Shown: piece after piece, positions 5,840-58,010 of the stretch | Numbering within the stretch: the first letter of the stretch is position 1 | Layout of the letters: every line of letters starts with the position of its first letter | Notes under the pieces: generated by a model | The model's input: the letters and a program-made list of their open reading frames with translations, nothing else | Database searches by the model: none | Told to the model about the DNA's origin: nothing | DNA from: Nannobrachium achirus | Taxonomy: Eukaryota > Chordata > Actinopteri > Myctophiformes > Myctophidae | Length of the DNA: 64,000 nt | Assembly (NCBI GenBank): GCA_963921795.1 | Contig: OY997647.1 | Span: 65,193,104 to 65,257,103 of the forward strand | Reading direction: 5' to 3' | Made by a program: the position numbers and the translations under genes

Positions 5840-6954
5840 GTTTAGTGTGGTTCAGTGTGGTACCTGTGACATTGAGTGTGGTTCAGTGTGGTGTCGTATG
5901 TAGTGTGGCAGCCTACCTGTGACATTAGTGTGGTTCAGTGTGGTGTCATATGTAGTGTGGTAGCCTACATGTGACATTAGTGTGGTTCAGTGTGGTGTCA
6001 TATGTGTGGTAGCCTACATGTGACATTAGTGTGGTTCAGTGTGGTGTCATATGTAGTGTGGTAGCCTACATGTGACATTAGTGTGGTTCAGTGTGGTGTT
6101 GTATGTAGTGTGGTAGCCTACATGTGACATTAGTGTGGTTTAGTGTGGTGTCATATGTAGTGTGGTAGCCTACATGTGACATTAGTGTGGTTCAGTGTGG
6201 TGTCATATGTAGTGTGGTAGCCTACATGTGACATTAGTGTGGTTCAGTGTGGTGTCATATGTAGTGTGGTAGCCTACATGTGACATTAGTGTGGTTCAGT
6301 GTGGTGTTGTATGTAGTGTGGTAGCCTACATGTGACATTAGTGTGGTTCAGTGTGGTGTTGTATGTAGTGTGGTAGCCTACATGTGACATTAGTGTGGTT
6401 TAGTGTGGTGTCGTATGTAGTGTGGTAGCCTACATGTGACATTAGTGTGGTTCAGTGTGGTGTCATATGTAGTGTGGTAGCCTACATGTGACATTAGTGT
6501 GGTTCAGTGTGGTGTCATATGTAGTGTGGTAGCCTACATGTGACATTAGTGTGGTTTAGTGTGGTGTTGTATGTAGTGTGGTAGCCTACATGTGACATTA
6601 GTGTGGTTCAGTGTGGTGTTGTATGTAGTGTGGTAGCCTACATGTGACATTAGTGTGGTTCAGTGTGGTGTTGTATGTAGTGTGGTAGCCTACATGTGAC
6701 ATTAGTGTGGTTCAGTGTGGTGTCATATGTAGTGTGGTAGCCTACATGTGACATTAGTGTGGTTCAGTGTGGTGTTGTATGTAGTGTGGTAGCCTACATG
6801 TGACATTAGTGTGGTTCAGTGTGGTGTCATATGTAGTGTGGTAGCCCACATGTGACATTAGTGTGGTTCAGTGTGGTGTGGTATGTAGTGTGGTAGCCTA
6901 CCTGTGACATTGAGTGTGGTTTAGTGTGGTGTCGTATGTAGTGTGGCAGCCTAC
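5840..6954. repeat. 52-bp minisatellite copying donor junction of exon l
   Basis: About 20 tandem units with consensus TAGCCTACATGTGACATTAG plus TGTGGTTCAGTGTGGTGTCA. On the minus strand each unit holds (A)ATGTCACAtGTAGGCT, a slightly diverged copy of the exon l 3' end and donor (CAATGTCACAG|gtaggct). Outermost units nearest the exon keep the exact ACCTGTGACATTGAG form. Confidence 0.92.
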
Positions 6955-7050
6955 CTGTGACATTGAGTCCGTCTGAGCGTTGACAGAACACCAGACGAGA
7001 CGCAGCTCTCCACAGCCCAGTCATCCATCTGTACTCATAACACTGTCCCT
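6955..7050 (-). CDS. thsd7a: thsd7a exon l (last in window)
   Basis: This 96-bp exon has acceptor ctcattgcag and donor gtaggctg. It reads EGQCYEYRWMTGLWRAASR, LVFCQRSDGLNVTG. It contains the Trp-rich start (YEYRWMTGLW), the FCQRSDG strand and an N-V-T sequon of the last TSP1 repeat known in the family. It ends one base into Gly. The next exon, expected to start with a Gly-Cys-containing segment, is not recognisable down to position 1. Arrays with copies of its own junctions flank it on both sides. Confidence 0.94.
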
Positions 7051-7850
7051 CTGCAATGAGACAACACATTACTGTATTAATACATTATCCATCATAACAC
7101 TGGCCCTCTGCAATGAGACAACACATTACTGTATTAATACATTATCCATCATAACACTGGCCCTCTGCAATGAGACAACACATTACTGTATTAATACATT
7201 ATCCATCATAACACTGGCCCTCTGCAATGAGACAACACATTACTGTATTAATACATTATCCATCATAACACTGGCCCTCTGCAATGAGACAACACATTAC
7301 TGTATTAATACATTATCCATCATAACACTGGCCCTCTGCAATGAGACAACACATTACTGTATTAATACATTATCCATCATAACACTGGCCCTCTGCAATG
7401 AGACAACACATTACTGTATTAATACAGTATCCATCTGTACTCATAACACTGTCCCTCTGCAATGAGACAACACATTACTGTATTAATACATTATCCATCT
7501 GTACTCATAACACAACATATTACTGTATTAATACATTATCCATCTGTACTCATAACACTGTCCCTCTGCAATGACACAACACATTACTGTATTAATACAT
7601 TATCCATCTGTACTCATAACACAACATATTACTGTATTAATACATTATCCATCATAACACTGTCCTTCTGTATGAGACAACACATTACTGTATTCATACA
7701 TTATCCATCATAACACTGTCCTTCTGTATGAGACAACACATTACTGTATTAATACATTATCCATCATAACACTGTCCTTCTGTATGAGACAACATATTAC
7801 TGTATTAATACCTTATCCATCTGTACTCATAACACTGTCCCTCTGCAGAG
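7051..7850. repeat. 57-bp minisatellite copying acceptor junction of exon l
   Basis: About 14 units of TGTACTCATAACACTGTCCC TCTGCAATGAGACAACACAT with intron filler. On the minus strand each carries ctcattgcag|AGGGACAGTGTTATGAG or the CATAACACTGGCC variant, i.e. acceptor plus first exon bases. Units nearest the exon keep CTGTACTC; central ones have lost it. Confidence 0.93.
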
Positions 7851-8650
7851 AGACATGTAGAAACATTACTGTGCATCAGAGATATGACACTAATGTAGTG
7901 TCATTGTAAGGCACACCTTGCTTCTCTATAGCTATTTAAAGTCCCAGTTCAAACATCAGAAGTGTGGCTTTTTAAATCCTCAGAAAAATCTCTGCCTTTT
8001 CTCACCCCCCCGAGAAAGTGAGTATTATATACAACAATGTTGGCATTCAATGAGTTAATCATTAAGATCTAGATAAGATGTCTACGCCGCCTCAAAGGAT
8101 GTCTCCACTCTATCTGGAGACCACCAGATAAGGTTTCCACCAGACAATGACCATATGGATGTTAATGTGGTGGTTGGTGGTGTGTATTTATAGACGCATT
8201 AAGGAGAGCTAATGATTTCTTTGAGTATGCTGGTAGAAATGTAGTGTAATATGATATCTACCCAGGAATATATTACATTAGTATGGTGGTAAAAATGTAA
8301 TGTAGTGTAATGTGATATCTACCCAGGAATATCTTACATTAATTAGTATGCTAGTAGAAATGTAACATGATATACTCAGGTGCTGTCTATCTTATCTTAC
8401 AGCTGAATGGCTGCTGCTGCCACCGATTAATTTCATCTTAAAGTTCAGCTTAAGTCTCTCCATGGGGTGCAGCTTTCCTGATCTGTTATCCACATATTAC
8501 TAATTGCTTCTTCTTCTTTTTTTATATCATTTGAGTTCAGGTGTGGCTTAGTTTTGAAAGTTATGAGAGACAGGACAGGAAACAAACCATCAATGTTATG
8601 AAGCTGAACAGATTATGTAACCTAATGTGAGATCTGAGCCACACTTGATT
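7851..8650. other. intron sequence, short local duplications
   Basis: No gene seen. A segment with TGATATCTACCCAGGAATAT and GTAGAAATGTA is present two to three times at 8225-8370, consistent with small tandem duplications. Confidence 0.5.
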
Positions 8651-9116
8651 AAAACCCATTTAGGCCTAGGATTATTGACTGCTTTAACCATTGAAAAATA
8701 GCATTTTTGAAAAATCATGATTTTTCTTTGCAAGTCTTTGAATATATCTATTTAAAAGCGAACATTTGTAACTCAAATATTTGCTTCTGGGGGGTCCCTG
8801 GAACAACATATTTTGAGATGGGGGTCCGTGGCTAAATACTTGTAATTTTGGGGGTCCTTGACATGAAAAAGTTTGAGAACCACTGATTTAGAGGAAGGAT
8901 TTGGAAGTCGGGTCAAAGATCGGGTCAAAGTTATTCAAAGACTTGCACACATTTTCAAATTTTTTCAAAAATAGCAGATCTACAAGCTCGCAGCGCGGCA
9001 CTCGGTGCAGCGCTGTGAGCTTGTATATCTGCTATTTTTCATAACATTTTGCATAGTGGTTAAAATGGTTAAAATCTAACGCGACTCGGGCGCGTTCCAG
9101 GTATTTGAGAGTTAAA
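8650..9116. mobile_element. TTAACCCATT MITE copy with palindrome
   Basis: Begins near AAACCCATTTAGGCCTAGG and ends GGTATTTGAGAGTTAA, sharing both with 35583-35756. It contains an hAT-like end (TTTGAGAACCACTG at about 8880) and the palindrome at 8967-9039 with tip GCGCGGCACTCGGTG. Confidence 0.6.
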
Positions 9117-9502: not shown

Positions 9503-9676
9503 CTGTACACGGCCGGGCCTCCCACTCCTGCTCCGGACACTGCAGCAGGTTCTCAGGGTCCTGGGCCACCACGGCTCTGGAGCGGACCTGCACCGAGCCC
9601 AGGCCCAGGTCATCCCCCCCCACGCAGCTCAGCTGACAGGGACTCCACACCGCCCAGTCTGTCAGGTAGCACTCAC
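9503..9676 (-). CDS. thsd7a: thsd7a exon k
   Basis: This 174-bp exon has acceptor gcgtgttctag and donor gtacgatt. It reads GECYLTDWAVWSPCQLSCV, GGDDLGLGSVQVRSRAVVA, QDPENLLQCPEQEWEARPC, T. It is a TSP1 repeat with W-A-V-W-S-P-C core, the V-R-S-R strand and the CPEQ...RPC end. It starts two bases into Gly and ends one base into the next codon. A (CGCA)n microsatellite begins 8-10 bp upstream of its acceptor and may crowd the polypyrimidine tract. Confidence 0.95.
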
Positions 9677-12995: not shown

Positions 12996-13173
12996 CTGGA
13001 CATGGCACGGTGCAGCTCTCCTCCAGGACGATGTTCCGGTCTCCGTCCACAGAGGGCGCCAGATCTCCACACAGCTCCTCCTCCACCAGGCTGCCCGGCC
13101 CCGCCCCCGGCTGCCCGTCCGACACGAAGCACGACACGTTGCGCGAGCGCAGGCCCTCGCCGCAACGCGCCCC
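12996..13173 (-). CDS. thsd7a: thsd7a exon j
   Basis: This 178-bp exon has acceptor gtcctccag and donor gtacacac. It reads GARCGEGLRSRNVSCFVSD, GQPGAGPGSLVEEELCGDL, APSVDGDRNIVLEESCTVP, CP. It contains the CGEG turn, an N-V-S sequon and the ESCTVPCP closing cysteines. It ends one base into a Gly codon. A (TG)n tract begins at the donor, and an array of about 37-bp units copying the acceptor lies at 13174-13425. Confidence 0.94.
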
Positions 13174-13425
13174 CTGGAGGACAAAGATAGACATTACACC
13201 GTGAAGCCCCCTAGAGGAGAGAGACACTCATTACACCCTGAATCCCCCTAGAGGACAGAGACACTCATTACACCCTGAAGCCCCCTAGAGGAGAGAGACA
13301 CTCATTACACCCTGAATCCCCCTAGAGGACAGAGACACTCATTACACCCTGAAGCCCCCTGCAGGACAGAGACACTCATTACACCCTGAAACACCACACG
13401 TTGCCCCTAGAGGAGAGAGACACAC
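13174..13425. repeat. 37-bp minisatellite copying acceptor of exon j
   Basis: Six to seven units of CCCCCTAGAGGAGAGAGACA CTCATTACACCCTGAAG. The minus strand of each unit has ctctctcctctag|GGGG, a copy of the true acceptor gtcctccag|GGGG. Confidence 0.88.
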
Positions 13426-13620: not shown

Positions 13621-13787
13621 GTATTTTGGCAGTGCCTTGATGGTGTCATAATGTCTGACTTTACACCTGGTTGCATGCTGAAAATCATGACATCATATTG
13701 TAGTTTAGACAGAGCCGTACCCAAATAAATGTGGTTCTAAAAGTGGAGTATGCATAGGCCCTAATAGTGTTGTTCTCTGGACACTAA

Positions 13788-13824
13788 CCTCACCTCACTG
13801 GGACCAGACTAACAGGACTCTCAC
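13788..13824. repeat. second copy of exon i donor junction
   Basis: Minus strand reads CTGGTCCCAGTGAG|gtgagg, copying the exon i end (CTGGTCCCAGTGCCGCTCTGAG|gtgaga) with seven bases missing. Confidence 0.7.
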
Positions 13825-13970
13825 CTCAGAGCGGCACTGGGACCAGGCTCCGTAGTGCCAGCGGTAGCAGGGTTTGACGGGACAGGGTTTCCACTGCTCC
13901 ATCTGGGCGGGACAGGGCCTGCCGTCCCCCTGAGGGGCCTGGACCACCGTCCTGCTGCGCCACAGCTTGC
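13825..13970 (-). CDS. thsd7a: thsd7a exon i
   Basis: This 146-bp exon has acceptor cctctgcag and donor gtgagagt. It reads KLWRSRTVVQAPQGDGRPC, PAQMEQWKPCPVKPCYRWH, YGAWSQCRSE. It supplies the Arg strand and RPCP/KPCPVKPC cysteines of the repeat started in exon h. It then begins another repeat (HYGAWSQC). It ends in phase 0. The last part of the exon and its donor recur once more just downstream (13794-13824), an apparent two-copy junction duplication. Confidence 0.95.
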
Positions 13971-22464: not shown

Positions 22465-22582
22465 CGGCCAGGCCACATGATTGGGTGCAGTCAGACCACG
22501 TGGACCAATCGGAGAGCTGGCAGTTGACGGGGCATTCCACCACACAGGAAGCGTTCATCTGCCACTTCCTGTCCAGACCAAG
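22465..22582 (-). CDS. thsd7a: thsd7a exon h
   Basis: This 118-bp exon has acceptor gtttcag and donor gtacgtag. It reads LGLDRKWQMNASCVVECPV, NCQLSDWSTWSDCTQSCGL, AG. It contains N-A-S, the V-E-C-P-V-N-C hinge, and the WSTWSDC core of the next TSP1 repeat. Phase 0 start and one-base overhang fit both neighbours. It is short and easily missed because minisatellites abut both ends: 22037-22464 copies the donor side and 22583-23408 copies the acceptor side. Confidence 0.93.
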
Positions 22583-23408
22583 CTGAAACATAAACAACAA
22601 CAACATGAGGGGTTAAAGGTCACTTCCTGTCCAGACCAAGCTGAAACACAAACAACAACATGAGGGGTTAAAGGTCACTTCCTGTCCAGACCAAGCTGAA
22701 ACATAAACAACAACAACATGAGGGGTTAAAGGTCACTTCCTGTCCAGACCAAGCTGAAACATAAACAACAACAACATGAGGGGTTAAAGGTCACTTCCTG
22801 TCCAGACCAAGCTGAAACGTAAACCACAACATGAGGGGTTAAAGGTCACTTCCTGTCCAGACCAAGCTGAAACGTAAACCACAACATGAGGGGTTAAAGG
22901 TCACTTCCTGTCCAGACCAAGCTGAAACATAAACCACAACATGAGGGGTTAAAGGTCACTTCCTGTCCAGACCAAGCTGAAACATAAACAACAACAACAT
23001 GAGGGGTTAAAGGTCACTTCCTGTCCAGACCAAGCTGAAACATAAACAACAACAACATGAGGGGTTAAAGGTCACTTCCTGTCCAGACCAAGCTGAAACG
23101 TAAACCACAACATGAGGGGTTAAAGGTCACTTCCTGTCCAGACCAAGCTGAAACGTAAACCACAACATGAGGGGTTAAAGGTCACTTCCTGTCCAGACCA
23201 AGCTGAAACATAAACAACAACAACATGAGGGGTTAAAGGTCACTTCCTGTCCAGACCAAGCTGAAACATAAACAACAACAACATGAGGGGTTAAAGGTCA
23301 CTTCCTGTCCAGACCAAGCTGAAACGTAAACAACAACAACATGAGGGGTTAAAGGTCACTTCCTGTCCAGACCAAGCTGAAACATAAACAACAACAACAT
23401 GAGGGGTT
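22583..23408. repeat. 52/58-bp minisatellite copying acceptor of exon h
   Basis: About 15 units of ACTTCCTGTCCAGACCAAGC TGAAACATAAACAACAACAA. Minus strand of each has gtttcag|CTTGGTCTGGACAGG, the true acceptor and first exon bases. Two length classes differ by a CAA insertion. Confidence 0.95.
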
Positions 23409-23409
23409 A

Positions 23410-24545: not shown

Positions 24546-25149
24546 GCGGCTTGCAATGGAATCTATAATATTAACATAAACACAAAAGCCAAGCCCGAGT
24601 TTCCCGTGTTATTTCAGTACCCCCAGACTGCCATGGCCAGAGTTTCCGGAGTTTTCCCGTAAAAAAAAAAAAAAAAAAAAAAAAAATGCCTAAAAAGTAT
24701 TAGCATGATCGCAATCGCGAAATTGCGTGTTTAGCCCCATAACAAACACATCTTTCAAAATGGCAGCCATGTTTGTTTACATTTGAAGACTTTGAAGGCT
24801 TCTATCTCATGAATGCCTGAACGGATTTCCAAGCGGATTTTTTTGTTTGGAAACTGTGAAAAAGTACTACACATATGGTGCATGATCTAGGCATGGGCAT
24901 GCACGATCCGTGCACTAGAAATGTATCCGTGCACTAGACATTTAGGAACGTGGCAGTGAGGAATTTGGGGGCCATTTTGAAAAGGCAATGAATGAGTTAA
25001 GGGAGAAAGGATCGCTTTAGGCTCTTCTATGAAGTTCAGCGGTAAGTCATTTTCGGGTTTTGTCCCCCGTTCACGCAGTCGACGCAAGTTGATTTCAACT
25101 CAACTCTTTACCGAGTCGATTTGACTTGCAAAAATCACAAGTCCCTCAC

Positions 25150-25780
25150 AGAAAGGGGGATATAAGCATGTGACACTGGACTCACCTCCTCACAGAAGGG
25201 GGGATATAAGCATGTGACACTGGACTCACCTCCTCACAGAAGGGGGGATATAAGCATGTGACACTGGACTCACCTCCTCACAGAAGGGGGGATATAAGCA
25301 TGTGACACTGAACTCACCTCCTCACAGAAACGGAGGTGAAGGGGGGACAGAAGACTCACCTCCTCACAGAAAGGGGGATATAAGCATGTGACACTGGACT
25401 CACCTCCTCACAGAAACGGAGGTGAAGGGGGGATAGAAGACTCACCTCCTCACAGAAACGGAGGTGAAGGGGGGATAGAAGACTCACCTCCTCACAGAAG
25501 CAGAGGTGAAGGGGGGACCGAAGCCTCACCTCCTCACAGAAACGGAGGTGAAGGGGGGACCGAAGCCTCACCTCCTCACAGAAACGGAGGTGAAGGGGGA
25601 CAGAAGACTCACCTCCTCACAGAAACGGAGGTGAAGGGGGGATAGAAGACTCACCTCCTCACAGAAACGGAGGTGAAGGGGGGATAGAAGACTCACCTCC
25701 TCACAGAAACGGAGGTGAAGGGGGGATAGAAGACTCACCTCCTCACAGAAACGGAGGTGAAGGGGGGATAGAAGACTCAC
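25150..25780. repeat. 42-bp minisatellite copying donor junction of exon g
   Basis: About 14 extra copies of CTGTGAGGAG|gtgagt, each in a 42-bp unit (distal units are 44 bp with GGGATATAAGCATGTGACAC). The 42-bp period keeps the exon frame open, reading VSLLSPLHLRFCEE repeatedly. Confidence 0.95.
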
Positions 25781-25896
25781 CTCCTCACAGAAACGGAGGT
25801 CCACAGACTTGCCGTCGCTGCGAACACAGTCCAGCATGCGGGTCTTGATCCCACTGCCACACACCGCTCTCTCACTCAGCTGACAGGTGCTCCAAT
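25781..25896 (-). CDS. thsd7a: thsd7a exon g
   Basis: This 116-bp exon has acceptor ctgtcag and donor gtgagtct. It reads DWSTCQLSERAVCGSGIKT, RMLDCVRSDGKSVDLRFCE, E. It carries a TSP1 core W-S-T-C, the CGSG turn and the RMLDCVRSDG strand. It starts two bases into the Asp codon and ends in phase 0. It is flanked on both sides by arrays copying its junctions: about 15 copies of the donor junction at lower coordinates and a few acceptor copies at 25897-26490. Confidence 0.95.
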
Positions 25897-27829: not shown

Positions 27830-27971
27830 CAGTGATGTTGTAGGAGTAATGGAAGCAGTTCCGGTTCAGTCCGCATGGCTCCGTCTCCTTGGTGGGGGGG
27901 CAGTCCTTTCCCTGGCCGGGTTGACGGATGGGGAGGGCTGTCCTCTCCCGAGTGCTGTTCACACTGCAGGG
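27830..27971 (-). CDS. thsd7a: thsd7a exon f (proximal donor)
   Basis: This exon is 142 bp if the first of three tandem donors is used. Acceptor is cctcttgcag. It reads PCSVNSTRERTALPIRQPG, QGKDCPPTKETEPCGLNRN, CFHYSYNIT. It ends one base into the Asp codon that opens exon g (D-W-S-T-C). It contains N-S-T and N-I-T sequons. The last 36 bases of the exon plus donor are tandemly triplicated downstream, so donors at 27829, 27793 and 27757 all preserve frame. I chose the proximal one because its length matches my memory of the family; the alternatives add 12 or 24 residues. Confidence 0.9.
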
Positions 27972-33894: not shown

Positions 33895-35141
33895 TATGTA
33901 TAGATTTAGATATAGATGTAGATATAGATAGAGTATATTATAGTATATATACCAGTGTACAGGGACTCCAGGGTCATTCAGATATATATATAGTATATTA
34001 TAGTATATATACCAGTGTACAGGGGCTCCAGTCATTCAGATAGAGTATATTATAGTATATATACCAGTGTACAGGGGCCCCAGTCATTCAGATAGAGTAT
34101 ATTATAGTATATATACCAGTGTACAGGGGCCCCAGTCATTCAGATAGAGTATATTATAGTATATATACCAGTGTACAGGGGCTCCAGGGTCATTCAGATA
34201 TAGATAGAGTATATTATAGCATATATACCAGTGTACAGGGGCTCCAGTCATTCAGATAGAGTATATTATAGTATATATACCAGTGTACAGGGGCCCCAGG
34301 GGCCCCAGTCATTCAGATATAGTATATTATAGTATATATACCAGTGTACAGGGGCTCCAGGGTCATTCAGATATAGATAGAGTATATTATAGTATATATA
34401 CCAGTGTACAGGGGCTCCAGTCATTCAGATAGAGTATATTATAGTATATATACCAGTGTACAGGGGCCCCAGGGGCCCCAGTCATTCAGATATAGTATAT
34501 TATAGTATATATACCAGTGTACAGGGGCTCCAGGGTCATTCAGATATAGATAGAGTATATTATAGTATATATACCAGTGTACAGGGGCCCCAGTCATTCA
34601 GATATAGTATATTATAGTATATATACCAGTGTACAGGGGCTCCAGGGTCATTCAGATATAGATAGAGTATATTATAGTATATATACCAGTGTACAGGGGC
34701 CCCAGTCATTCAGATAGAGTATATTATAGTATATATACCAGTGTACAGGGGCCCCAGTCATTCAGATAGAGTATATTATAGTATATGTACCAGTGTACAG
34801 GGGCCCCAGTCATTCAGATATAGTATATTATAGTATATATACCAGTGTACAGGGGCCCCAGTCATTCAGATAGAGTATATTATAGTATATGTACCAGTGT
34901 ACAGGGGCCCCAGTCATTCAGATAGAGTATATTATAGTATATATACCAGTGTACAGGGGCTCCAGGCCCCCCAGTCGTTCAGGACACAGTCTTCAGTGCA
35001 GTATAGATATAGATATATTATAATAGTACCAGTGTACAGGGGCTCCAGTCATTCAGATAGAGTATATTATAGTATATATACCAGTGTACAGGGGCTCCAG
35101 GGTCATTCAGATATAGATAGAGTATATTATAGTATATATAC
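33895..35141. repeat. 53-bp minisatellite copying donor junction of exon e
   Basis: About 24 units of GTATATTATAGTATATATAC CAGTGTACAGGGGCCCCAGT. Minus strand of each holds CTGAATGACTGGGG...CCCCTGTACACTG|gtatatatac. One unit (34947-34994) keeps a longer exon stretch, coding EDCVLNDWGAWSPCTL. Confidence 0.95.
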
Positions 35142-35295
35142 CAGTGTACAGGGGCTCCAGGCCCCCCAGTCATTCAGCACACAGTCCTCAGGGCAGGGCA
35201 GTCTGCTGTCTCGGGCCCCTAGCGGCATCTCCTCTGGATCACACAGGTAGTCTTCAACCTGGTCTGAGGGCCCGTCTATGGTGTTCTGCATGCAC
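35142..35295 (-). CDS. thsd7a: thsd7a exon e
   Basis: This 154-bp exon has acceptor gcgcgtgcag and donor gtatatat. It reads CMQNTIDGPSDQVEDYLCD, PEEMPLGARDSRLPCPEDC, VLNDWGAWSPCTL. It finishes one TSP1 repeat and starts the next (D-W-G-A-W-S-P-C). Donor gtatat is weaker than the gtgagt/gtaagt type, but phase 0 here matches the phase-0 start of exon f (PCSVNST), which fixes it. Its donor side runs straight into a 1.2-kb array built of the same junction. Its acceptor side abuts a (CGCA)n tract. Confidence 0.92.
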
Positions 35296-35756: not shown

Positions 35757-37262
35757 TAAACTCCACTAACAGATCATTTAAAAACATGAACAGGTGCTGC
35801 ACAGGTGGTCAGCTGAAACTAGCAGGGTGATTTTTATTGATTTGTTGCTTCCCAGTAAAAGTAGAAACAGAGAACATCAAGGTTGTTGTTTTTAGCTTGT
35901 GTTTCAAAGTCAAGATTTGACCGTGGATCCCCCCATCTTAACATATTTTGTTCCATGGACCCCGAGAAAGAATGATTTGAGTTACAAATGTTCTGCTTTA
36001 AAATATATACATATTCAAAGATTTGCACAATTCTTCACGATTTCTCAAAAATAGCTCTCTGCTGTGGGGCCGAAACCTCTTAACTCCAAAATGTTCATTT
36101 TCGGGAAAATGAGCTCAAGTGTTGTTAGGGAGGTTTTGACCAAAGGGTTTTTTATTAATTTTCATTGGTTCAATATTATGTTAACCAACACTCAGATGTA
36201 AAGGGTGTTCAATAGCCCTGATTTATGACAAAAAATCTAAAACCTAAAAAATGGAGTTAAGAGATTTTGGCCAGACAGTGACGATATGCAACCGCGCTGT
36301 GAGCTTGTAGATCTGCTATTTTTGAATATCCAAAGTATCAAAATAATGGTTAAAGTGGTTCAAAGTGACATAACAGTAAAGCTGCCATCCTGGTCTAAAT
36401 GGCTTGAACGGTCTAAATTAGCCTGGAATCAGACAAATCCGCTGGTGCAAAAAAATGTTTGCCTCTGCTGATTTAGCTCTGGCCCCTCCATTTCCTCACC
36501 CCGAAAAGTTGGGTGAGCAATCAGGGCCCTGGTATTGGTCTGGTCTAACCAGTTGTGTCCAGAGTCCTTGGAAAGAAAGCTTCCATATCCACCTCTTTCC
36601 GTGGGAATTTACTGGAGAATTCTTTGCACCACACTTCCGGTTAACAGCAGACATACAAGCTCACGTCACGTCGCAGATGCAACCGTTGTGAGCTTGTAGA
36701 TCAGGGGTTTTCAAAGTGGGTGACAGGGCACCCTGGGGTGCCGTGACGGCAGTCCAGGGGTGCCGTGAGATCATTTGATAATATTTGGAATTTATTTGGA
36801 CACTTGAAAAATATTTAGTATCATTTTAAACTTGAAGTACAAAGTTATTTTCAGTCAGTTCTAACCAAAATGGCTGTTATCTCAACGTTTTCCTCGCAAC
36901 ATAATCACTAAAATAACGCCACTGTCGGGCAGAAACCTTGTATACAGAGCGTGCGCATGCGTGAGCGTCGGTACCTGACAGTGAGAAGCTCTGTCACTCT
37001 GTGGCATTTTAACGTTATTTTAACAGATTTCTACGCAATCTTCTAACACCAAATGCTTGGATACTAGTCCTCTGATATACAGCTTCTCAACCACCTTGCA
37101 ATCGCAGTGATCAGGCACCTAGATCACTTTCTTCACCTTGGAGTCGCACTGTTCTGCTAGCCGGCTGTGGCTCGCCTTTAGCCTAGAAGCCGGTTAGCGA
37201 ACAGTTAGCTGAGGCTAACCATAGCCTAGAAACGACCCAGCCGTACTACGGATACTGCCAAA

Positions 37263-38501
37263 ATGGCACCATCAGCGGCAGAAGTCAACTCATTGAGGAC
37301 GGAGCTCCACTCCATTACTAACCTCCTGAATGAACTCCTCCAGCGGCAATCACAAATCCAGGACCGCCTGGCCATCATGGATCCTCAGAACGGAGATGCC
37401 CCGAGCGGAGAGGCTGCTTCCCGGGAGCCCTGCCCGGGAGGAGGAGGCGCTCAGAGCGGCGACAGTCTCCTACCTTCTCTCGGAGAGGCTGCCTCATACG
37501 CAACGGTGGTCAAGGGACTTCACAGGCGGAGACTATCCTTGTCCCTCTTCGATCCATCGGGTTGTGGAGAACGTGACCTGACCATTGGCTTCCCCTGTTC
37601 CAACTCCTTCTTGCCGCTCCAGGAGTTGGCAGACGCGGCCACGCCGAGCCTGCTCAAGGTCCCTCCGCAGCGATCGGCGGCGACGTCCCGTCCTCGAAAA
37701 CGCGCTGGTGGCCCTGATTCCTCCTCCGAATCTCTCACCGGCACATCGACCCGCACCTCTACCCCCAAGGCTATTCCAGTGGTCAAACGGCGGCGCGTGG
37801 CTGAACCGGCTGTCCCTCCAACTCTCCCTAATCCAGTGGAGATGACCAGCGCCACAGCAGAGCGTGAGAAAGCCGTTACTACTCCAGCTACTGTCCAGGT
37901 GTCAACGCCTCCTGCCTTGATGAGGCCAGCTGTATCTGATTCTCACATTCTCCCCCCTAATCTCGCAGTTTACGGAGATGAGAGCAGTTCCGTCCCCCAA
38001 GTAATGGTATTGGGGGACTCGATTGTGAGATCTATTAAGTTTCCAGGAGCCATAATATGCTGTTTAAGTGGTGGAAAAGTTGTAAACCTTATTCAACTTG
38101 CCCCAATTCTAACCGACCTTTACCCCTCCATTCACACAATCATCATACACTGCGGGACCAATGACGTCATGTCTAGACGCTCAGCTAAACTTCATCATGA
38201 CATTGAATCCTTGTGTGACACTATTGAGAGTTTGGGAAAAACTTGCATTCTGTCTGGCCCTATCCCTAGTCTCTCAAAGAGCAGTGAACATTTCAGTCGA
38301 ATTTTTAGCCTTCATAACTGGCTGAAACATTTCTGTGTGGCAGCAGGTTACAATTTTATCAGTAACTTTGATGATTTATGGTCTAAACAGCACCTTTATA
38401 AAAGGGATGGCACCCACCCTAATCTGAAAGGCTCCAAAATACTAGCAACAAATTTCATTCACTGCCTTCACTGCATAGCCCATGATGTTGGTCCTCTGTG
38501 A
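37263..38501 (+). CDS. L2 ORF1 protein (coiled coil + SGNH/GDSL esterase-like)
   Basis: 412 codons. The N-terminus (residues 1-35, SLRTELHSITNLLNELLQRQ) is heptad-like, suited to trimer or dimer formation. The middle is Ser/Pro-rich and basic. The C-terminal 160 residues form an SGNH hydrolase-type domain: VMVLGDSIV near residue 248 with the nucleophile Ser, HCGTND near 297, and DGTHPN near 381 supplying Asp and His. Such ORF1 proteins of CR1/L2 LINEs bind RNA and lipid esters; the role in retrotransposition is unclear. It ends in TGA, in the same frame as ORF2. Confidence 0.9.
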   Translation: MAPSAAEVNSLRTELHSITNLLNELLQRQSQIQDRLAIMDPQNGDAPSGEAASREPCPGGGGAQSGDSLLPSLGEAASYATVVKGLHRRRLSLSLFDPSGCGERDLTIGFPCSNSFLPLQELADAATPSLLKVPPQRSAATSRPRKRAGGPDSSSESLTGTSTRTSTPKAIPVVKRRRVAEPAVPPTLPNPVEMTSATAEREKAVTTPATVQVSTPPALMRPAVSDSHILPPNLAVYGDESSSVPQVMVLGDSIVRSIKFPGAIICCLSGGKVVNLIQLAPILTDLYPSIHTIIIHCGTNDVMSRRSAKLHHDIESLCDTIESLGKTCILSGPIPSLSKSSEHFSRIFSLHNWLKHFCVAAGYNFISNFDDLWSKQHLYKRDGTHPNLKGSKILATNFIHCLHCIAHDVGPL

Positions 38502-38666
38502 CCTTCACACCCTAATTCTTCTACTCTCATTCCTGTAATTATTAGTAGTAGTAGGTCCTGTTTCCTTGACCACCCTGTACGCTCTGTCATCTTCAGCAAC
38601 CTAGCAATCCCACCTAATAACCAGCAACATGTCCAACTGTCTCCACCTCTCACAGCCCCAGTTTTA

Positions 38667-41462
38667 ATGGGTCTTCTAAATGTCAGAGCATTAAAGGAGA
38701 AGTCATTTCTATGTCGAGATGTTATTCAGAATAACAACTTAGACTTTTTTATGATTACTGAGACATGGCTGACCCCCGAAAACACTGCCTCTCTTAAAGA
38801 GACATGCCCCCCCAACTTTTATTGTTTTAATAAGCCTAGAATAACAAAGACCATTGGTGGTGGTCTTGCCATTATTTATAGAGATAACTTTAAATGCTCC
38901 CAAATTTCTCTCGGAACCTTTTCTTCATTTGAGAGCTTTGGCTTTTTAATCAATGGCGATATTCCTTTTTTATGTGTTTTAATCTATAGACCTCCAAAAA
39001 GCTCTGGGTTTTTAAACGAATTCTCTGATCTTTTATCCGCCATTGTGCCCCAATACGACAGGATCCTGGTTCTAGGAGATCTGAATGTGCATATTTGTTG
39101 TACATCTTCCTGTGTTTTAGCCTCAGATTTTATCACACTTTATGAATCTTTTAATTTTGTTCAATCGGTTACTGGTCCTACCCATGACAAGGGTCACACA
39201 CTAGATCTGGTCCTTTCATTTGGTTTTGAGGTAAATAACACTGGTACAACAGAATTCTCCTCTTCTGATCACAAAGTTGTTACCTTTCAGACTCTGCTTC
39301 CTCCTCCTGATCCCAAGCCCCCTATTTCCACACGCTCCCGTGTTTTTAATACAAACTCAGCTCAGCGTTTCCAACAGGCCTTTTTAGTGGCTCCAACTAA
39401 TTTTAACACGCAGTCTCAATTTTCTGTTGACAAGCTAGTATGTGATTTTAATAATAAATGCACCACCATTTTGGACAGAATTGCCCCTTTTAAAACCAAA
39501 CTCCTTAAATCAAACCAATTATGTTTCTCAAATGAGCAAACAAGAGAGAGCAAAAGGCTTAGCAGAAAAGCAGAGCGTAAATGGAGGAAGGACAAACTTC
39601 CTACATCCTACAACTCACTACGAGAAAGCATGGCTGCCTACCAAAATGCTGTTAAAGAGGCAAGAAGTTCTTATTTTTCTAAACTGATCACATCAAACAG
39701 TCACAATCCCAGGGTTCTATTTCAGGCTATAGATTCAGTTGTCGGCCCTCCTCCCACTCAGCTACTAGAAGCCTCCTCTGAAAAGTGTGAAGAGTTTTTA
39801 TTACACTTTATTAATAAAATAGACGTTATCAGGCAACAGTTTACCCCTGGGCCCAGTGCCCTCGGAGTTTGCACTCCCCCCCCTGCACTTCTGTCCCATT
39901 TTGAGCAGATTAGCCTGTCAACCCTGGAGGAAGTCATTTCTAAAATGAAATCCTCCACTTGCTCACTGGACACTATCCCTACTAGATTTTTTAAGGATGT
40001 TTTACACACAATAGGGCCCAATATTTTAACCATTATTAACCACTCACTGTCCTCAGGTGTATTCCCATCCAGTTTTAAAGCTGCTCTGGTTCAGCCTCTC
40101 TTGAAGAAGCCATCATTGGACCCTTCAGTTTTAAACAATTTTAGACCAATTTCAAAGCTACCTTTTTTATCAAAGATTTTAGAAAAAATTGTATCTACCC
40201 AACTCATCTCTTTTATGAGTTTTAACAGTGTCTTTGAGGACTTTCAATCAGGGTTCCGAGCTTGTCACAGCACCGAAACCACACTAGTAAAGGTCACCAA
40301 TGATCTTCTGTCGGCTGCTGATATTGGTGAGTGCTCCGTGTTGCTTCTTCTTGATCTCAGCTCAGCATTTGACACGGTGAGCCACTCAATTTTAATTAAA
40401 CGCCTAGAGGAATGGGTTGGAATCAGGGACCAGGCACTAGACTGGTTCCGCTCCTACCTTAGTGAGAGAAGCTTCTCAGTGGTCATTGGGAAGGCCTCAT
40501 CCTCCCAGGCCCCCCTCTCCTCGGGTGTCCCCCAGGGCTCAATTCTAGGTCCACTGTTGTTTTCCATTTACATGCTCCCACTTGGTCACATAATACGTAA
40601 ATACAATATCCATTTCCATTTTTATGCAGACGACACACAGTTATACATCCCCCTCAAGCCCGGTAACACCAACAATATGACCCGCATCCTCACTTGTCTC
40701 TCAGAGATTAAGTGTTGGATGTCCCAGAACTCTCTTCAGCTCAACCAGACAAAAACAGAGATCATTTTATTTGGCCCACCTCATTACACCATCCCTTTCC
40801 AGTCACATCTAGGCGATCTGTCGAACAATATCAAAACATCTGCCCGCAACCTAGGTGTGATGTTTGACTCTGATCTATCTTTTAAAGTGCAGGTAACAAA
40901 AGTTGTACAGTCGTGTTTCTTTCAATTAAGAAACATTTCGAAAATTAAGTCATTTTTATCTTTTGCGGATCTAGAAAAAGTTATCCATGCTTTTATTTCG
41001 TCACGTCTCGACTACTGTAACTCGTTATACTCCGGACTCCCTAAAAAAGTAATCTCCCGTCTACAGCTTGTGCAAAACTCGGCAGCTAGACTCCTGACCA
41101 ATACTAGGAGACATGAGCACATCACACCGATACTTGCCGCCCTTCACTGGCTACCGGTGGATTTTAGAGTTGATTTTAAAATTTTATTGCTTACTTTTAA
41201 AGCCCTGCATGGCCTGGCTCCCAGCTACATCTCCGACATGCTGGAGCCTTATAGGCCGACACGCACCCTGAGATCCGCAGGCAGAGCATTATTGGTAGTT
41301 CCCCCAACGAACCTCGTCACTATGGGTGATCGGGCTTTCGCGGCCCGGGCCCCAAAACTTTGGAACAACCTGCCTGTGGACTTAAGGCTTGCCCAGTCAG
41401 TGACTTCTTTTAAGACACTCCTGAAAACGCACTTATACACCAAGGCCTTTCCTAGACTTTAG
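38667..41462 (+). CDS. L2 ORF2 protein (endonuclease + reverse transcriptase)
   Basis: 931 codons from the ATG chosen here. The apurinic-type endonuclease occupies residues 1 to about 225 (LNVRALKEK, MITETWL, GDLNVH, and SSDHK near 200 with the catalytic His). The reverse transcriptase spans about 455-720: NNFRPISKLPFLSKILEKI, LLLDLSSAFDTVSH, SGVPQGSILGPLLF near 617, and FYADDTQLY with the YADD box at 653-656. The C-terminal region has SSRLDYCNSLYSGLP, HWLPVDFRVDFKIL and LWNNLPVDLR, usual for L2. All catalytic residues are present. The frame is open upstream back to the ORF1 stop, so initiation, reinitiation or readthrough are all possible. Confidence 0.95.
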   Translation: MGLLNVRALKEKSFLCRDVIQNNNLDFFMITETWLTPENTASLKETCPPNFYCFNKPRITKTIGGGLAIIYRDNFKCSQISLGTFSSFESFGFLINGDIPFLCVLIYRPPKSSGFLNEFSDLLSAIVPQYDRILVLGDLNVHICCTSSCVLASDFITLYESFNFVQSVTGPTHDKGHTLDLVLSFGFEVNNTGTTEFSSSDHKVVTFQTLLPPPDPKPPISTRSRVFNTNSAQRFQQAFLVAPTNFNTQSQFSVDKLVCDFNNKCTTILDRIAPFKTKLLKSNQLCFSNEQTRESKRLSRKAERKWRKDKLPTSYNSLRESMAAYQNAVKEARSSYFSKLITSNSHNPRVLFQAIDSVVGPPPTQLLEASSEKCEEFLLHFINKIDVIRQQFTPGPSALGVCTPPPALLSHFEQISLSTLEEVISKMKSSTCSLDTIPTRFFKDVLHTIGPNILTIINHSLSSGVFPSSFKAALVQPLLKKPSLDPSVLNNFRPISKLPFLSKILEKIVSTQLISFMSFNSVFEDFQSGFRACHSTETTLVKVTNDLLSAADIGECSVLLLLDLSSAFDTVSHSILIKRLEEWVGIRDQALDWFRSYLSERSFSVVIGKASSSQAPLSSGVPQGSILGPLLFSIYMLPLGHIIRKYNIHFHFYADDTQLYIPLKPGNTNNMTRILTCLSEIKCWMSQNSLQLNQTKTEIILFGPPHYTIPFQSHLGDLSNNIKTSARNLGVMFDSDLSFKVQVTKVVQSCFFQLRNISKIKSFLSFADLEKVIHAFISSRLDYCNSLYSGLPKKVISRLQLVQNSAARLLTNTRRHEHITPILAALHWLPVDFRVDFKILLLTFKALHGLAPSYISDMLEPYRPTRTLRSAGRALLVVPPTNLVTMGDRAFAARAPKLWNNLPVDLRLAQSVTSFKTLLKTHLYTKAFPRL

Positions 41463-42028: not shown

Positions 42029-42162
42029 CTGACTTTGCGGGTCTGGATTCCCTCTCCACAGTTCTCCTTTAGATCCACGTTGCTCACCTTCCACACGCTC
42101 CAGGGCTCTGCTACCCACACGTACTGACCACAGTCCGACAGGCAGGGGACCACCTCATATAC
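42029..42162 (-). CDS. thsd7a: thsd7a exon d
   Basis: This 134-bp exon has acceptor cttatag and donor gtaatctc. It reads VYEVVPCLSDCGQYVWVAE, PWSVWKVSNVDLKENCGEG, IQTRKVR. It closes one TSP1 repeat (VVPC) and opens another. In the new repeat the core reads P-W-S-V-W, where sister repeats in this gene have W-S-x-C; a TGG codon stands where TGC or TGT would be expected. It ends after two bases of an Arg codon completed by exon e. The acceptor junction is repeated in the array at 42163-42455. Confidence 0.93.
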
Positions 42163-42455
42163 CTATAAGATACAATACCACACATACTGAGGCAGAGGAC
42201 CACCTCATATACCTATAATAATACACAGTCACTGAGCAGGGGACCACCTCATATACCTATAATAATACACAGTCACTGAGGCAGAGGACCACCTCATATA
42301 CCTATAATAATACACAGTCACTGAGCAGGGGACCACCTCATATACCTATAATAATACACAGTCACTGAGGCAGGGGACCACCTCATATACCTATAAGATA
42401 CAATACCACACATACTGAGGCAGGGGACCACCTCATATACCTATAGGATAATACA
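42163..42455. repeat. 45-bp minisatellite copying acceptor of exon d
   Basis: Six to seven units of GGACCACCTCATATACCTAT AATAATACACAGTCACTGAG. Minus strand holds ttatag|GTATATGAGGTGGTCC, the true acceptor and first exon bases. Confidence 0.94.
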
Positions 42456-43589: not shown

Positions 43590-43600
43590 TCTTCATACTG

Positions 43601-43886
43601 ACCTGGTTGACATGGTCCAGTTTGGGGCAGGGTCTACAGGGTCATACTGACCTGGTTGGGACAGGGTCTAGGTTGGGACAGGGTCTACAGGGTCTACAGG
43701 GTCATACTGACCTGGTTGGGACAGGGTCTAGGTTGGGACAGGGTCTACAGGGTCTACAGGGTCATACTGACCTGGTTGGGACAGGGTCTAGGTTGGGACA
43801 GGGTCTACAGGGTCTACAGGGTCATACTGACCTGGTTGGGACAGGGTCTAGGTTGGGACAGGGTCTACAGGGTCTCATATACTAAC
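43601..43886. repeat. 60-bp minisatellite copying donor junction of exon c
   Basis: Four 60-bp units of CATACTGACCTGGTTGGGAC AGGGTCTAGGTTGGGACAGG. The distal unit (43609-43636) keeps the exact exon end GACCATGTCAACCAG|gtcagt on the minus strand. Interior units have lost the middle but keep CCAG|gtcagt. Confidence 0.93.
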
Positions 43887-44065
43887 CTGGTTGACATGGT
43901 CCAGTTTGGGGCAGGGTCTTCCTCCGTTGTAGGGCTTCTCTCTGAGCCACTTGGAGCGAACTTTGACCCCGCTGCCGCAGGACTTGCTGCAGCGAGACCA
44001 GTTGGACCACTCACTGAGCTTACAGTCTGATGGACAGGGGATGATGCAGGCCTCCTCGATGTAGC
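43887..44065 (-). CDS. thsd7a: thsd7a exon c
   Basis: This 179-bp exon has acceptor ccccag and donor gttagtat. It encodes a nearly complete TSP1 repeat: YIEEACIIPCPSDCKLSEW, SNWSRCSKSCGSGVKVRSK, WLREKPYNGGRPCPKLDHV, NQ. The WSNWSRC core is followed by CGSG and by the Arg-rich strand that stacks on the tryptophans in this fold. An N-W-S sequon overlaps the core. It ends in phase 0. The 3' end and donor are duplicated in the array at 43601-43886. Confidence 0.95.
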
Positions 44066-52153: not shown

Positions 52154-53478
52154 ATCAAGGCCCAATAAAAAGAACAAGTGGTGGGGCCTTCTCCTCCCCT
52201 CCCTGACACCAAACCACCAGAATAAAAAGAACAAGTGGTGGGGCCTTCTCCTCCCCTCCCTGACACCAAACCACCAGAATAAAAAGAACAAGTGGTGGGG
52301 CCTTCTCCTCCCCTCCCTGACACCAAACGACCAGAATAAAAAGAACAAGTGGTCGGGCCTTCTCTTCCCCTCGCTGACACCAAACCACCAGAATAAAAAG
52401 AACAAGTGGTCGGGCCTTCTCTTCCCCTCGCTGACACCAAACCACCAGAATAAAAAGAACAAGTGGACGGGCCTTCTCTTCCCCTCGCTGACACCAAACG
52501 ACCAGAATAAAAAGAACAAGTGGTGGGGCCTTCTCTTCCCCTCGCTGACACCAAACCACCAGAATAAAAAGAACAAGTGGTCGGGCCTTCTCTTCCCCTC
52601 GCTGACACCAAACCACCAGAATAAAAAGAACAAGTGGACGGGCCTTCTCTTCCCCTCGCTGACACCAAACGACCAGAATAAAAAGAACAAGTGGTGGGGC
52701 CTTCTCTTCCCCTCGCTGACACCAAACCACCAGAATAAAAAGAACAAGTGGTCGGGCCTTCTCCTCCCCTCGCTGACACCAAACGACCAGAATAAAAAGA
52801 ACAAGTGGTCGGGCCTTCTCTTCCCCTCGCTGACACCAAACCACCAGAATAAAAAGAACAAGTGGTCGGGCCTTCTCCTCCCCTCGCTGACACCAAACGA
52901 CCAGAATAAAAAGAACAAGTGGTCGGGCCTTCTCTTCCCCTCGCTGACACCAAACCACCAGAATAAAAAGAACAAGTGGTGGGGCCTTCTCTTCCCCTCG
53001 CTGACACCAAACCACCAGAATAAAAAGAACAAGTGGTGGGGCCTTCTCTTCCCCTCGCTGACACCAAACCACCAGAATAAAAAGAACAAGTGGTGGGGCC
53101 TTCTCTTCCCCTCGCTGACACCAAACCACCAGAATAAAAAGAACAAGTGGTGGGGCCTTCTCTTCCCCTCGCTGACACCAAACCACCAGAATAAAAAGAA
53201 CAAGTGGTGGGGCCTTCTCTTCCCCTCGCTGACACCAAACGACCAGAATAAAAAGAACAAGTGGTCGGGCCTTCTCTTCCCCTCGCTGACACCAAACGAC
53301 CAGAATAAAAAGAACAAGTGGTCGGGCCTTCTCCTCCCCTCGCTGACACCAAACGACCAGAATAAAAAGAACAAGTGGTCGGGCCTTCTCTTCCCCTCGC
53401 TGACACCAAACGACCAGAATAAAAAGAACAAGTGGTCGGGCCTTCTCTTCCCCTCGCTGACACCAAACGACCAGAATG
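52154..53478. repeat. 57-bp minisatellite, about 23 units
   Basis: Units of AATAAAAAGAACAAGTGGTC GGGCCTTCTCTTCCCCTCGC plus CTGACACCAAACCACCAG. Because 57 is divisible by 3 and the unit lacks stops in several frames, both strands look open over more than 1 kb. It lies in the intron between exons b and c and copies no exon junction that I can find. Variants (C/G at the CCACC/CGACC site, WSG/WWG) are patchily distributed along the array. Confidence 0.96.
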
Positions 53479-54250: not shown

Positions 54251-54254
54251 TGGA

Positions 54255-54335: not shown

Positions 54336-54447
54336 AATGTCTGAAAATCTATGAACATTTTTCAACATTACGATTATGACGATCATGACAAAATAATTTC
54401 GATTAGACGATTATGTAATAATTGTGACAGTGCTAGATGGGGCTCAC

Positions 54448-54714
54448 CGTGGCTGTTGCATCGTGCGGTCTCCACCATGCGGTCGTCCTGGTCGTAACAG
54501 ACCATGGCCTGGTAGCGGTACCCCTGCCCACACTCCCTGATGTCCCCCTGGACCTTCATGCCCAGCTGTCCCTCCGCGCGCCCCCCCTCGGGCAGGATGC
54601 AGTCCGACCAGTTGCCCACCGGCTGGGCGTTGTACTTGTTGCACGGGCAGTACTGTGTCTCTGACAGAGGGTACGACTGGCTGTTCTTGCACTGGTCTCG
54701 CTTCTTGCTCTTCC
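54448..54714 (-). CDS. thsd7a: thsd7a exon b
   Basis: This is the longest exon here (267 bp), between acceptor ctccttccag and donor gtgagccc. It reads GKSKKRDQCKNSQSYPLSE, then TQYCPCNKYNAQPVG, NWSDCILPEG, MKVQGDIRECGQGYRYQAM and CYDQDDRMVETARCNSHG. It completes the TSP1 repeat begun in exon a. It contains an N-W-S glycosylation sequon and a W-S-D-C core, followed by the ECGQGYRYQ turn. It ends one base into a Gly codon finished by exon c. Neither junction has a minisatellite, so it serves as an internal comparison for the array-flanked exons. Confidence 0.93.
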
Positions 54715-55079
54715 CTGGAAGGAGGAGAGAGAGAGACTGTGAGTCCTTTAAGCAACAGACTGTTAAACACACGCAGCGGTGGAAGTACATTCACTTAAAG
54801 ATCTGTGCGCTCAGACAGCGTCAGCCCAAAGCTGCCCTGCAGCGAAATGTATGCTTTGGTTACCGTGGTAACGACGTAGGCGTCATGATGTTACATCACT
54901 ACGTCGACGCTAGTTGATTACACGTTCAGGAAATGCGACATAATAGACCATAGTAAACACACGTTACAATATTGTTTTTCTCTCTTCTTTTCTTTACTCT
55001 TGTGTTTCGCTCTTCTCTCTGGTTTTAACTGTTTGTTTTACTTAAAGATGGAGTGCCGTGATTTTTTCCCCCTCTAAAA

Positions 55080-55539: not shown

Positions 55540-55549
55540 CTCTAAAACA

Positions 55550-56590: not shown

Positions 56591-56597
56591 GCTGAAG

Positions 56598-56655
56598 ATG
56601 GATGGATGGATGGTTGGATGGATGGATGCATGCGTGGATGGATGGATGGATGCAT
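56598..56655. repeat. (GGAT)n microsatellite
   Basis: Tandem GATG with scattered changes. Confidence 0.93.
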
Positions 56656-56659
56656 AAGA

Positions 56660-57340
56660 TAAGACAAGATAACGTTAAAACGATACCTGGCTAATATCCC
56701 AAATATGTCTTAGCTAATTGAATTGACCCTTTGTCAAGTCCCGTCCGTTGTCCCGCCCCTCTTCGCACCCATTGGTTGCTGTGTTTTGGTTGGACAAAGG
56801 TTCTCTCCATCCACTACCATTGAAATTCAGTTGCTTCTTATTGTTATTCTATGTGTTCAATTCTCATTTTAAACTTGGTTTCAGTCAAAAGGAGCCTCTC
56901 AGGTGCAGTATAGTGACTGGGCATGTTTTTAATTGTTTTTATTCCTCCAAAAAAATATGTTTTATCAAATTCAACATAAAAAAGGCAGAACCAGGGCGGG
57001 ACAAGGCAGAAAGAGCCTGCTGGTTGGTCAGTCAGGGACCAATCAGAAGGCTGACCAAGGGTGAATTACGATATTTGATAGAAATGTGTAATGTTTTAAT
57101 GCAACATTTAGCTACAATGTCCCTGAACTTCACATGAAACTGCTAGCGTAGCCGCTTACAAGGCATCGCCTACGATAACAATGATAGCCAGCCGGCAGCT
57201 TTTTTGCGACCAGCGCACCTGATTTCTTTACTTGACGAGACCCGTTCCATAATGCTCAATATCACCACGGGTAGAGCGCTATTTCAACCAATCAGAGGGC
57301 TTCGTTGGAACTACCTGTTGTATAATCTCCGGTACATCAC
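56660..57340. other. intron sequence, no gene seen
   Basis: Unremarkable apart from short A and T runs. Confidence 0.4.
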
Positions 57341-57344
57341 TCAC

Positions 57345-57526
57345 CCACGAGCATCCTCTTGCGGGTTCGCACGCCCACGCAGTCGGCGGTGCAGGGGGAG
57401 AACTTGGACCAGGGCGTGAGCTGGCAGTCCTCCTGGCAGGGCAGCTGGCATGGCTGGGTGAGGGCGGGCATGGCGCTGGCATGCTGCAGACACGCCCCCA
57501 TGTCCGCCTGGCCCCCGTCCTGCTTT
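57345..57526 (-). CDS. thsd7a: thsd7a exon a (first in window)
   Basis: This 182-bp exon lies between acceptor tgtcttgcag and donor gtgagtga. It reads KQDGGQADMGACLQH, then PCQLPCQEDCQLTPWSKF, SPCTADC and RTRKRMLVG: the end of one TSP1 repeat and the start of the next (W-S-K-F-S-x-C core). Entry phase leaves the final base of a split codon; the exon ends one base into a Gly codon completed by the next exon at 54714. Its acceptor is copied many times in the minisatellite at 57527-58010. The preceding exon is not visible, because nothing TSP1-like was found between 57527 and 64000. Confidence 0.9.
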
Positions 57527-58010
57527 CTGCAAGACACCGCTGAGGAGGAGAGACAGAGGAATGAGACTTAATGCTTTCTGTAAGAAACCACTGAGGAGGA
57601 CAGAGAGGAGAGAGAGACAGAGGTTTGAGACTTAATGCTTTCTGTAAGAAACCGCTGAGGAGGACAGAGAGGAGAGAGAAGAGAAGAGGTTTGAGACTTA
57701 ATGCTTTCTGTAAGAAACCACTGAGGAGGAAAGAGAGGAGAGAGAGAAGAGGTTTGAGACTTAATGCTTTCTGTAAGAAACCACTGAGGAAGAGAGAGAG
57801 GAGAGAGAGACAGAGGTTTGAGACTTAATGCTTTCTGTAAGAAACCACTGAGGAGGACAGAGAGGAGAGAGAGACAGAGGTTTGAGACTTAATGCTTTCT
57901 GTAAGAAACCACTGAGGAGGACGGAGAGGAGAGAGAGACAGAGGTTTGAGACTTAATGCTTTCTGTAAGAAACCACTGAGGAAGAGAGAGAGGAGAGGAG
58001 AGAGAAGAGC
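57527..58010. repeat. 65-bp minisatellite copying acceptor of exon a
   Basis: About seven units containing TTAATGCTTTCTGTAAGAAA CCACTGAGGAGGA. The true junction in + orientation is TGCTTT|CTGCAAGACACCGCTG; the array version differs at three bases, one of which turns the minus-strand acceptor tgcag into tacag. Confidence 0.92.

Follow-up and report, generated by a model that had tools for sequence, protein, structure and literature searches.

Junction-spanning minisatellites at half of the exon-intron junctions in a segment of a fish thsd7a gene

The window analysed here, by which we mean the whole stretch C10:65193104-65257103 (64,000 nt) from the 1.66 Gb genome of the fish Nannobrachium achirus, carries exons of the gene thsd7a on its minus strand. 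Twelve exons with 24 junctions were rebuilt, all introns being GT-AG, and exons a-l, when concatenated, form a single open frame with 0 stops and with TSP1 domains as evidenced by Pfam. Twelve of the 24 junctions sit in a tandem array of their own that spans the junction, according to both Tandem Repeats Finder (TRF) and a scoring of local duplications. The exons were mapped by tblastn with a human THSD7A sequence, which served as a lead, and their edges were then refined by reading the splice sites. Once joined, the exons correspond one after another to this human protein, and the array copies are intronic. Note that the exon letters were taken over from an earlier, sequence-only reading of the same stretch and follow transcript order (a = 57539-57345 ... 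l = 7050-6955). The genome also has a thsd7a paralog (C2) and a thsd7b-like gene. The exons are:

57345..57539, minus strand, exon a, the first thsd7a exon of the window (tblastn and splice sites)
54448..54714, minus strand, exon b, without a junction array (splice sites and duplication scoring)
43887..44065, minus strand, exon c (gene model, as for all exons below)
42029..42162, minus strand, exon d
35142..35295, minus strand, exon e
27830..27971, minus strand, exon f
25781..25896, minus strand, exon g
22465..22582, minus strand, exon h
13825..13970, minus strand, exon i
12996..13173, minus strand, exon j
9503..9676, minus strand, exon k
6955..7050, minus strand, exon l

The arrayed junctions are the acceptors of exons a, d, g, h, j and l and the donors of exons c, e, f, g, h and l, six of each kind. 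Each array is a head-to-tail repeat of a short segment that straddles one exon edge and comprises the splice site together with some exon sequence. This exon part amounts to 5-34 nt in ten arrays; for the exon e donor it is 19 nt by the 60 bp TRF row and 55 nt by the 195 bp row, and for the exon d acceptor it is recognized through the content of the unit. The arrays are 0.1-1.3 kb long with main units of 36-64 bp, and in every one of them the true junction is the exon-proximal copy. The sequence-only reading had counted thirteen arrayed junctions; twelve of them stood up to TRF and scoring, but the thirteenth, at the exon i donor, is a weak pair of copies that is absent from a second copy of this part of the gene (see below). 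A comparable weak pair at the exon k donor had no place in that count. The arrays and the two weaker pairs are:

57521..58003, minus strand, exon a acceptor array, 64 bp x7.2, exon part 19 nt, 7 decoy acceptors scored
43628..43919, minus strand, exon c donor array, 60 bp x5, exon part 33 nt
43594-43635, minus strand, 14-codon copy of the exon end at the far end of the exon c donor array (tblastn)
42186..42455, minus strand, exon d acceptor array, 44 bp x5.9, TRF edge 23 nt from the exon, unit including both the acceptor and a duplicate of the exon start
33926..35196, minus strand, exon e donor array, 52 bp x17.8 plus 60 bp and higher-order rows, 20 decoy donors scored
27756..27861, minus strand, exon f donor array, 36 bp x2.9, exon part 32 nt, period a multiple of 3, frame open
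25144..25800, minus strand, exon g donor array, 42/44 bp units, exon part 20 nt, 14 decoy donors scored
25881..26494, minus strand, exon g acceptor array, 72 bp x2 with an exon part of 16 nt, beside 42-44 bp units, only 2 decoy acceptors scored
22037..22498, minus strand, exon h donor array, units of 51 and 44 bp, exon part 34 nt
22563..23409, minus strand, exon h acceptor array, 58 bp x14.9, exon part 20 nt
~13779-13828, minus strand, weak, diverged two-copy duplication at the exon i donor, without counterpart in the gene copy
13169..13390, minus strand, exon j acceptor array, 37 bp x6, exon part 5 nt, two units in the gene copy
50 nt inside the intron, minus strand, weak second copy of the exon k donor, similar to the exon i donor pair
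7035..7835, minus strand, exon l acceptor array, 57 bp x14, exon part 16 nt
5861..6964, minus strand, exon l donor array, 52 bp x21.2, exon part 10 nt, 20 decoy donors scored

At the exon f donor, use of a decoy would insert 12 aa including another N-I-T sequon, and the gene copy has ~4 units there.

In searches of the examined loci, all matches to the unit of each of the twelve arrays fell within that array itself, in the gene copy, or in the corresponding exon of a paralog, as had been claimed when the arrays were first described as specific to their junctions. A query across the exon e donor gave 22 matches within that array and 23 in the gene copy, with 0 elsewhere in these loci, and a 173-base query from the exon h acceptor, run against the whole genome in a search that scores the best candidates only, found its own array and the gene copy only, among the matches listed. 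A single dispersed repeat as the source of the arrays is rejected on the grounds that the units are junction-specific in the locus searches and, for the exon h acceptor, in the whole-genome search. Beyond the splice site, no common motif was noticed by eye across the units.

Putative decoy splice sites were scored from the sequence alone, with a threshold of at least 78% identity over 26 nt, and in a second set with at least 70% identity and GT/AG present. The second set holds 102 candidate decoys in the window, which agrees with the earlier estimate of dozens, and a true site may face as many as 47 nearby sites with an identity of at least 78%. The proposed spread from the exon edge into the intron agrees with the position of the decoys: at the 78% threshold, 96/96 in the window and 88/89 in the gene copy have an intact GT/AG and are found towards the intron, the single exception being a match 2 kb from the copy-2 exon i acceptor. 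For the exon c donor and the exon j acceptor no decoy reaches this threshold. Apparent decoys of the exon e acceptor are chance microsatellite matches and were excluded from the GT/AG counts and from the scoring of the 102 decoys. With the dinucleotide masked and the threshold lowered, in arrays with at least two decoys, GT/AG was intact in 100/100 cases in the window and 89/91 in the copy. Striking as this count initially was, a test by alignment columns argues only weakly for strong conservation: 3/32 GT/AG columns are variable versus 94/384 others (exon e acceptor excluded), and because only 94/384 of the other columns vary, the invariance of GT/AG is weak evidence for constraint. By a simple splice score, 70/102 window decoys equal or exceed the true site. 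The main period is not a multiple of 3 in 7/12 arrays, the units of the exon f and g donors being multiples of 3 and partly open, and an in-frame open product would result from 6/102 decoys only, so that in most arrays the decoys are unlikely to serve as functional in-frame sites.

The accumulation of arrays at junctions was compared with chance by placing the 20 arrays of the window, hand-merged from the TRF output, at random 5000 times; the set excludes TRF rows with a period <29 unless they overlap a kept array (microsatellites and short rows, the latter including two-copy rows of period 26-27). In the real sequence 12/20 arrays overlap a junction or come within 30 bp of one, and 11/20 do so with zero tolerance. 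If at most 60 bp of exon cover was allowed, the mean was 0.82 arrays and the maximum 6. Unrestricted placement gave a mean of 2.65 arrays (maximum 8) and 4.19 junctions touched (maximum 14), contact counts that are higher because the arrays then bury whole exons. Duplications in the neighbourhood of the exons provide a further yardstick. Within 600 bp of the twelve exons, 12 junctions are affected and only 2 independent intron-only duplication clusters occur; the rate of such nearby intronic events predicts 1.9% of junctions, ~0.45/24, and P(>=12/24) at this rate is ~4e-15.

Elsewhere in the genome, junction-spanning duplications were found at 4/161 control junctions, namely 1/14 for the thsd7a 5' exons and exon m, 1/22 for the C2 paralog, 1/17 for the thsd7b-like gene, 0/52 for other TSP_1 exons, 1/39 for fn3 exons and 0/17 for additional controls (m', the transmembrane exon and seven TSP_1 exons). 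The 17 additional junctions have no event-based expectation; for the remaining 144 the intronic rate predicts 2.74 cases, against 4 observed (P(>=4) 0.29). The window differs from all controls with P = 1.6e-9 in a Fisher test, and from the paralogs (12/24 vs 2/39) with P = 6e-5. A process favouring splice junctions throughout the genome, as proposed in the sequence-only reading, is not supported by this sample, nor is an excess across the whole gene, as the other scored thsd7a exons have 1/18 junctions affected: the excess of junction arrays is local to exons a-l. The exons themselves offer no obvious reason. GC, CpG, flank GC and splice-site scores of exons a-l show no clear difference from the controls, and special exon composition or weak splice sites were for this reason set aside as a cause.

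The four control cases indicate that single junction duplications do arise elsewhere. They comprise a thsd7a 5' exon donor at C10:65319593-65319751 (L022), with an identical 61 nt (44 exon nt and the donor) 95 bp away in the intron; a thsd7b-like acceptor (L061 405-535) with 65 bp x2 at 97%; the exon e acceptor of the C2 thsd7a paralog (L053 634-793) with 42 bp x3.8; and an fn3 exon acceptor (L081 ~230-300) with a short duplication that TRF and self-BLAST of the fn3 loci had missed and that was seen by eye and then scored. The duplication at L022 is followed by an intronic array of 39 bp x33. Control exon edges were set by a simple splice score, which on the 24 known edges recovered 23 in one open frame or more; two 5' thsd7a exon edges score low. 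L007 was excluded as it overlaps L006, and unscored junctions are the L001 donor, the L036 acceptor, the L063 donor, the L076 acceptor, both of L091 and the L096 acceptor. A low-complexity filter omits simple-repeat arrays such as that of L090.

Exons c-m of thsd7a are present twice in tandem within the gene, at C10:65117969-65169889 and C10:65184317-65239171, the duplicated stretch corresponding to ~7-46 kb of the window plus loci L009-L015 and L089. The terminal thsd7a exons are single at the locus and lie beyond the second copy. If the second exon set were spliced in, the protein would gain ~ten extra exons of TSP1 repeats. Between the c-l exon sets, the proportion of synonymous differences (pS) is 0.072 and that of nonsynonymous differences (pN) 0.0045, with two of the five nonsynonymous changes falling in one codon that remains serine; introns show 4.05% substitutions. 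Gaps of 200 N at C10:65178877 and C10:65251475 (window 58372-58571, in the intron upstream of exon a) flank the stretch with exons a-m, and the similarity of the copies stops ~9 kb before the nearest gap. From the low pN, the intron divergence and the end of similarity short of the gap, both copies seem to be real and constrained, and the same features disfavour an unpurged haplotype.

The duplication also provides a relative age for the arrays. As evidenced by unit matches, an array is present in the other copy at 11/11 junction-array sites of exons c-l (11/12 if the exon i donor is included), and it still spans the junction at 10/11 of them (10/12 with the exon i donor). In copy 2, 9/20 junctions lie in a duplication by scoring, with the exon c donor added by eye. 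The copies of exon ends at the far end of the exon c donor array and inside the exon e donor array are found in both gene copies. The simplest reading is thus that these arrays predate the intragenic duplication of exons c-m. Since then their lengths have shifted, as copy numbers differ between the gene copies, which are paralogs rather than alleles; the exon g donor array, for instance, measures 0.66 vs 2.15 kb. Of the purely intronic arrays, 2-3 of 10-11 are common to both copies and eight are unshared; C10:65215140 was pooled with the exon h donor array, and C10:65223370 is ambiguous, which gives either 2 or 3 shared arrays. Fisher tests of junction versus intronic sharing gave 5e-4 to 2.5e-3 for arrays and 0.002 to 0.010 if only junction-spanning arrays were counted. 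Junction arrays thus look longer-lived than purely intronic ones, and the comparison of the copies points to unequal retention rather than a continuing birth of arrays at exon edges, a possibility that the sequence-only reading had not raised.

Three further repeats or open frames were noted in the window:

37230-41462, two long open frames of 423 and 986 aa, which we take to resemble a non-long-terminal-repeat (non-LTR) retrotransposon
52164-53477, a 57 bp x23 minisatellite with several open frames on both strands, of up to 569 aa
4278-4636, a CAGC tetranucleotide array of ~360 bp

The explanation that we favour, and hold to be probable though far from settled, is that ordinary tandem duplications across exon edges were tolerated and then retained. 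Each array would have started as a short tandem duplication that by chance ran across an exon edge, through slippage, template switching or the repair of a break, and it would have been tolerated because a normal mRNA still results when the exon-proximal site is used. The arrays would then expand and contract like other minisatellites, and exon-anchored arrays would outlast intronic ones, perhaps because deletions reaching from the array into the exon are purged, so that over this longer retention junction arrays accumulate. Their concentration at exons a-l we ascribe, only tentatively, to the history of this gene segment. Several points weigh against this explanation. Selective tolerance, already suggested in the sequence-only reading, fits a true site that stays usable, but alone it does not give the local excess of 12 affected junctions where ~0.45 are expected. 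If a longer life were general, other exons should also have accumulated arrays; the rest of thsd7a has 1/18 junctions affected (Fisher against 12/24, 0.002), although 109.8 kb of readable 5' thsd7a sequence holds 28 arrays. Our tests treat junctions as independent, in a window that was selected for its striking appearance. The persistence comparison relies on a single duplication, its counts are small and its calls were made by hand, and the copy-2 exon g acceptor array does not span its junction. Several of the unshared intronic arrays also have a flank missing or displaced in the other copy, which indicates a contribution of larger rearrangements, and gene conversion between the copies could keep exon-edge arrays similar.

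The local excess would also be accounted for if a mutational process aimed at exon edges had seeded many junctions in a burst, for instance when recombination or transcription led to breaks or to polymerase switching at splice sites. The ratio of 12 affected junctions to 2 nearby intron-only clusters, its very low probability at the intronic rate, the equal share of donors and acceptors and the position of the window, ~2.4 Mb from the end of the 67.67 Mb contig, speak for such a process. We nevertheless regard it as rather unlikely, as at most 1-2 junction duplications differ between the copies (the exon i donor and perhaps the exon k donor, by gain or loss), eight intron-only arrays are unshared, the exons do not clearly stand out in GC, CpG or splice-site scores, and inspection of the units by eye brought out no common motif beyond the splice site. 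Template jumping from spliced cDNA was set aside because the units carry contiguous intron rather than the next exon. That the arrays are functional, their extra splice sites being selected for splicing regulation or for an in-frame peptide, would agree with the nearly complete set of intact GT/AG dinucleotides, with the 70/102 decoys that score at least as well as the true site and with the partly open units of the exon f and g donors; the few in-frame open decoys, the seven periods that break the frame and the modest column test make it very improbable. Similarly small is the likelihood that the arrays or the second gene copy result from misassembly or unpurged haplotypes. Gaps do flank exons a-m, but array lengths at the same junctions differ between the copies, which show 7% synonymous difference under strong constraint and lose their similarity well short of the gap. 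Least probable of all is a coincidence in a region rich in minisatellites whose arrays merely abut exons: with 20 minisatellites in the window and 28 in the 109.8 kb upstream, as many as 14 junctions are on occasion buried when placement is unrestricted, but with exons protected no placement in 5000 exceeded 6 arrays against the 12 observed, and nearby intronic events would affect 0.45 junctions.

A more far-reaching and decidedly tentative proposal is that in certain gene segments tandem duplication acts preferentially on exon edges, or its products find shelter there, so that half or more of the junctions may gain long-lived minisatellites while the spliceosome keeps choosing the exon-proximal copy among dozens. 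If this were true, exons a-l of thsd7a would represent a dense example, in which one could test naturally how the position of a splice site is read. Independently of this proposal, the arrays pose the questions whether anchoring to an exon prolongs the life of a tandem array and how splicing selects one site among so many close neighbours. In practice, junction arrays can mislead gene prediction and compromise primers or guides designed for exon edges.

Tandem repeats have been linked to splice sites before. Human introns are said to have arisen from tandem arrays, reportedly in a study by Zhuo et al. in 2007. Intron gain by tandem duplication carrying splice signals is the subject of the Rogers model and of the potato RdRp case, which in the available part of PMC4974935 likewise involve such duplications inside genes; in thsd7a no new intron is seen, and the copies lie within existing introns beside conserved exon edges. 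Among fish, the Atlantic cod genome is also repeat-rich: tandem repeats, mostly of short units, are numerous inside genes and around them, and junction-spanning minisatellites are not treated in the portion of PMC5241972 at hand. The closest counterpart are the 'mirages' of amphioxus, minisatellites spanning exon-intron boundaries that are described, in the excerpts available from PMC3087553 and PMC3902484, for Adh3, the globins BflGb6 and BflGb9, PGBD5 and troponin C, contrary to the impression left by the sequence-only reading, which knew of no described mechanism acting in this way across a whole gene. According to these excerpts, mirages affect 5' or 3' exon boundaries, have units of 10-160 bp, show length instability among alleles or haplotypes, and have cephalochordates as their hosts so far. 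The twelve thsd7a arrays are alike in having units that span the exon-intron boundary, in affecting both boundaries (6 donors, 6 acceptors) and in main units of 36-64 bp that fall within the reported range. Regular splicing of mirages was suggested by reverse transcription PCR (RT-PCR) in the same part of PMC3087553, whereas regular splicing of thsd7a is here a prediction from the sequence, with exons intact and the joined frame open. The excerpts report one or few mirages per gene, but the thsd7a segment has them at 12/24 junctions, in a fish rather than a cephalochordate, and a relative age follows from arrays common to an intragenic duplicate. No vertebrate mirage was among the literature matches listed, in a coverage that mostly leaves out subscription journals. 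The thsd7a arrays therefore extend an amphioxus curiosity to a fish gene and add numbers to it, namely the rate at control junctions, the size of the local excess and the relative age given by the intragenic duplication; by anatomy they are the same kind as mirages, and their host, density and age are, as far as we have seen, new.

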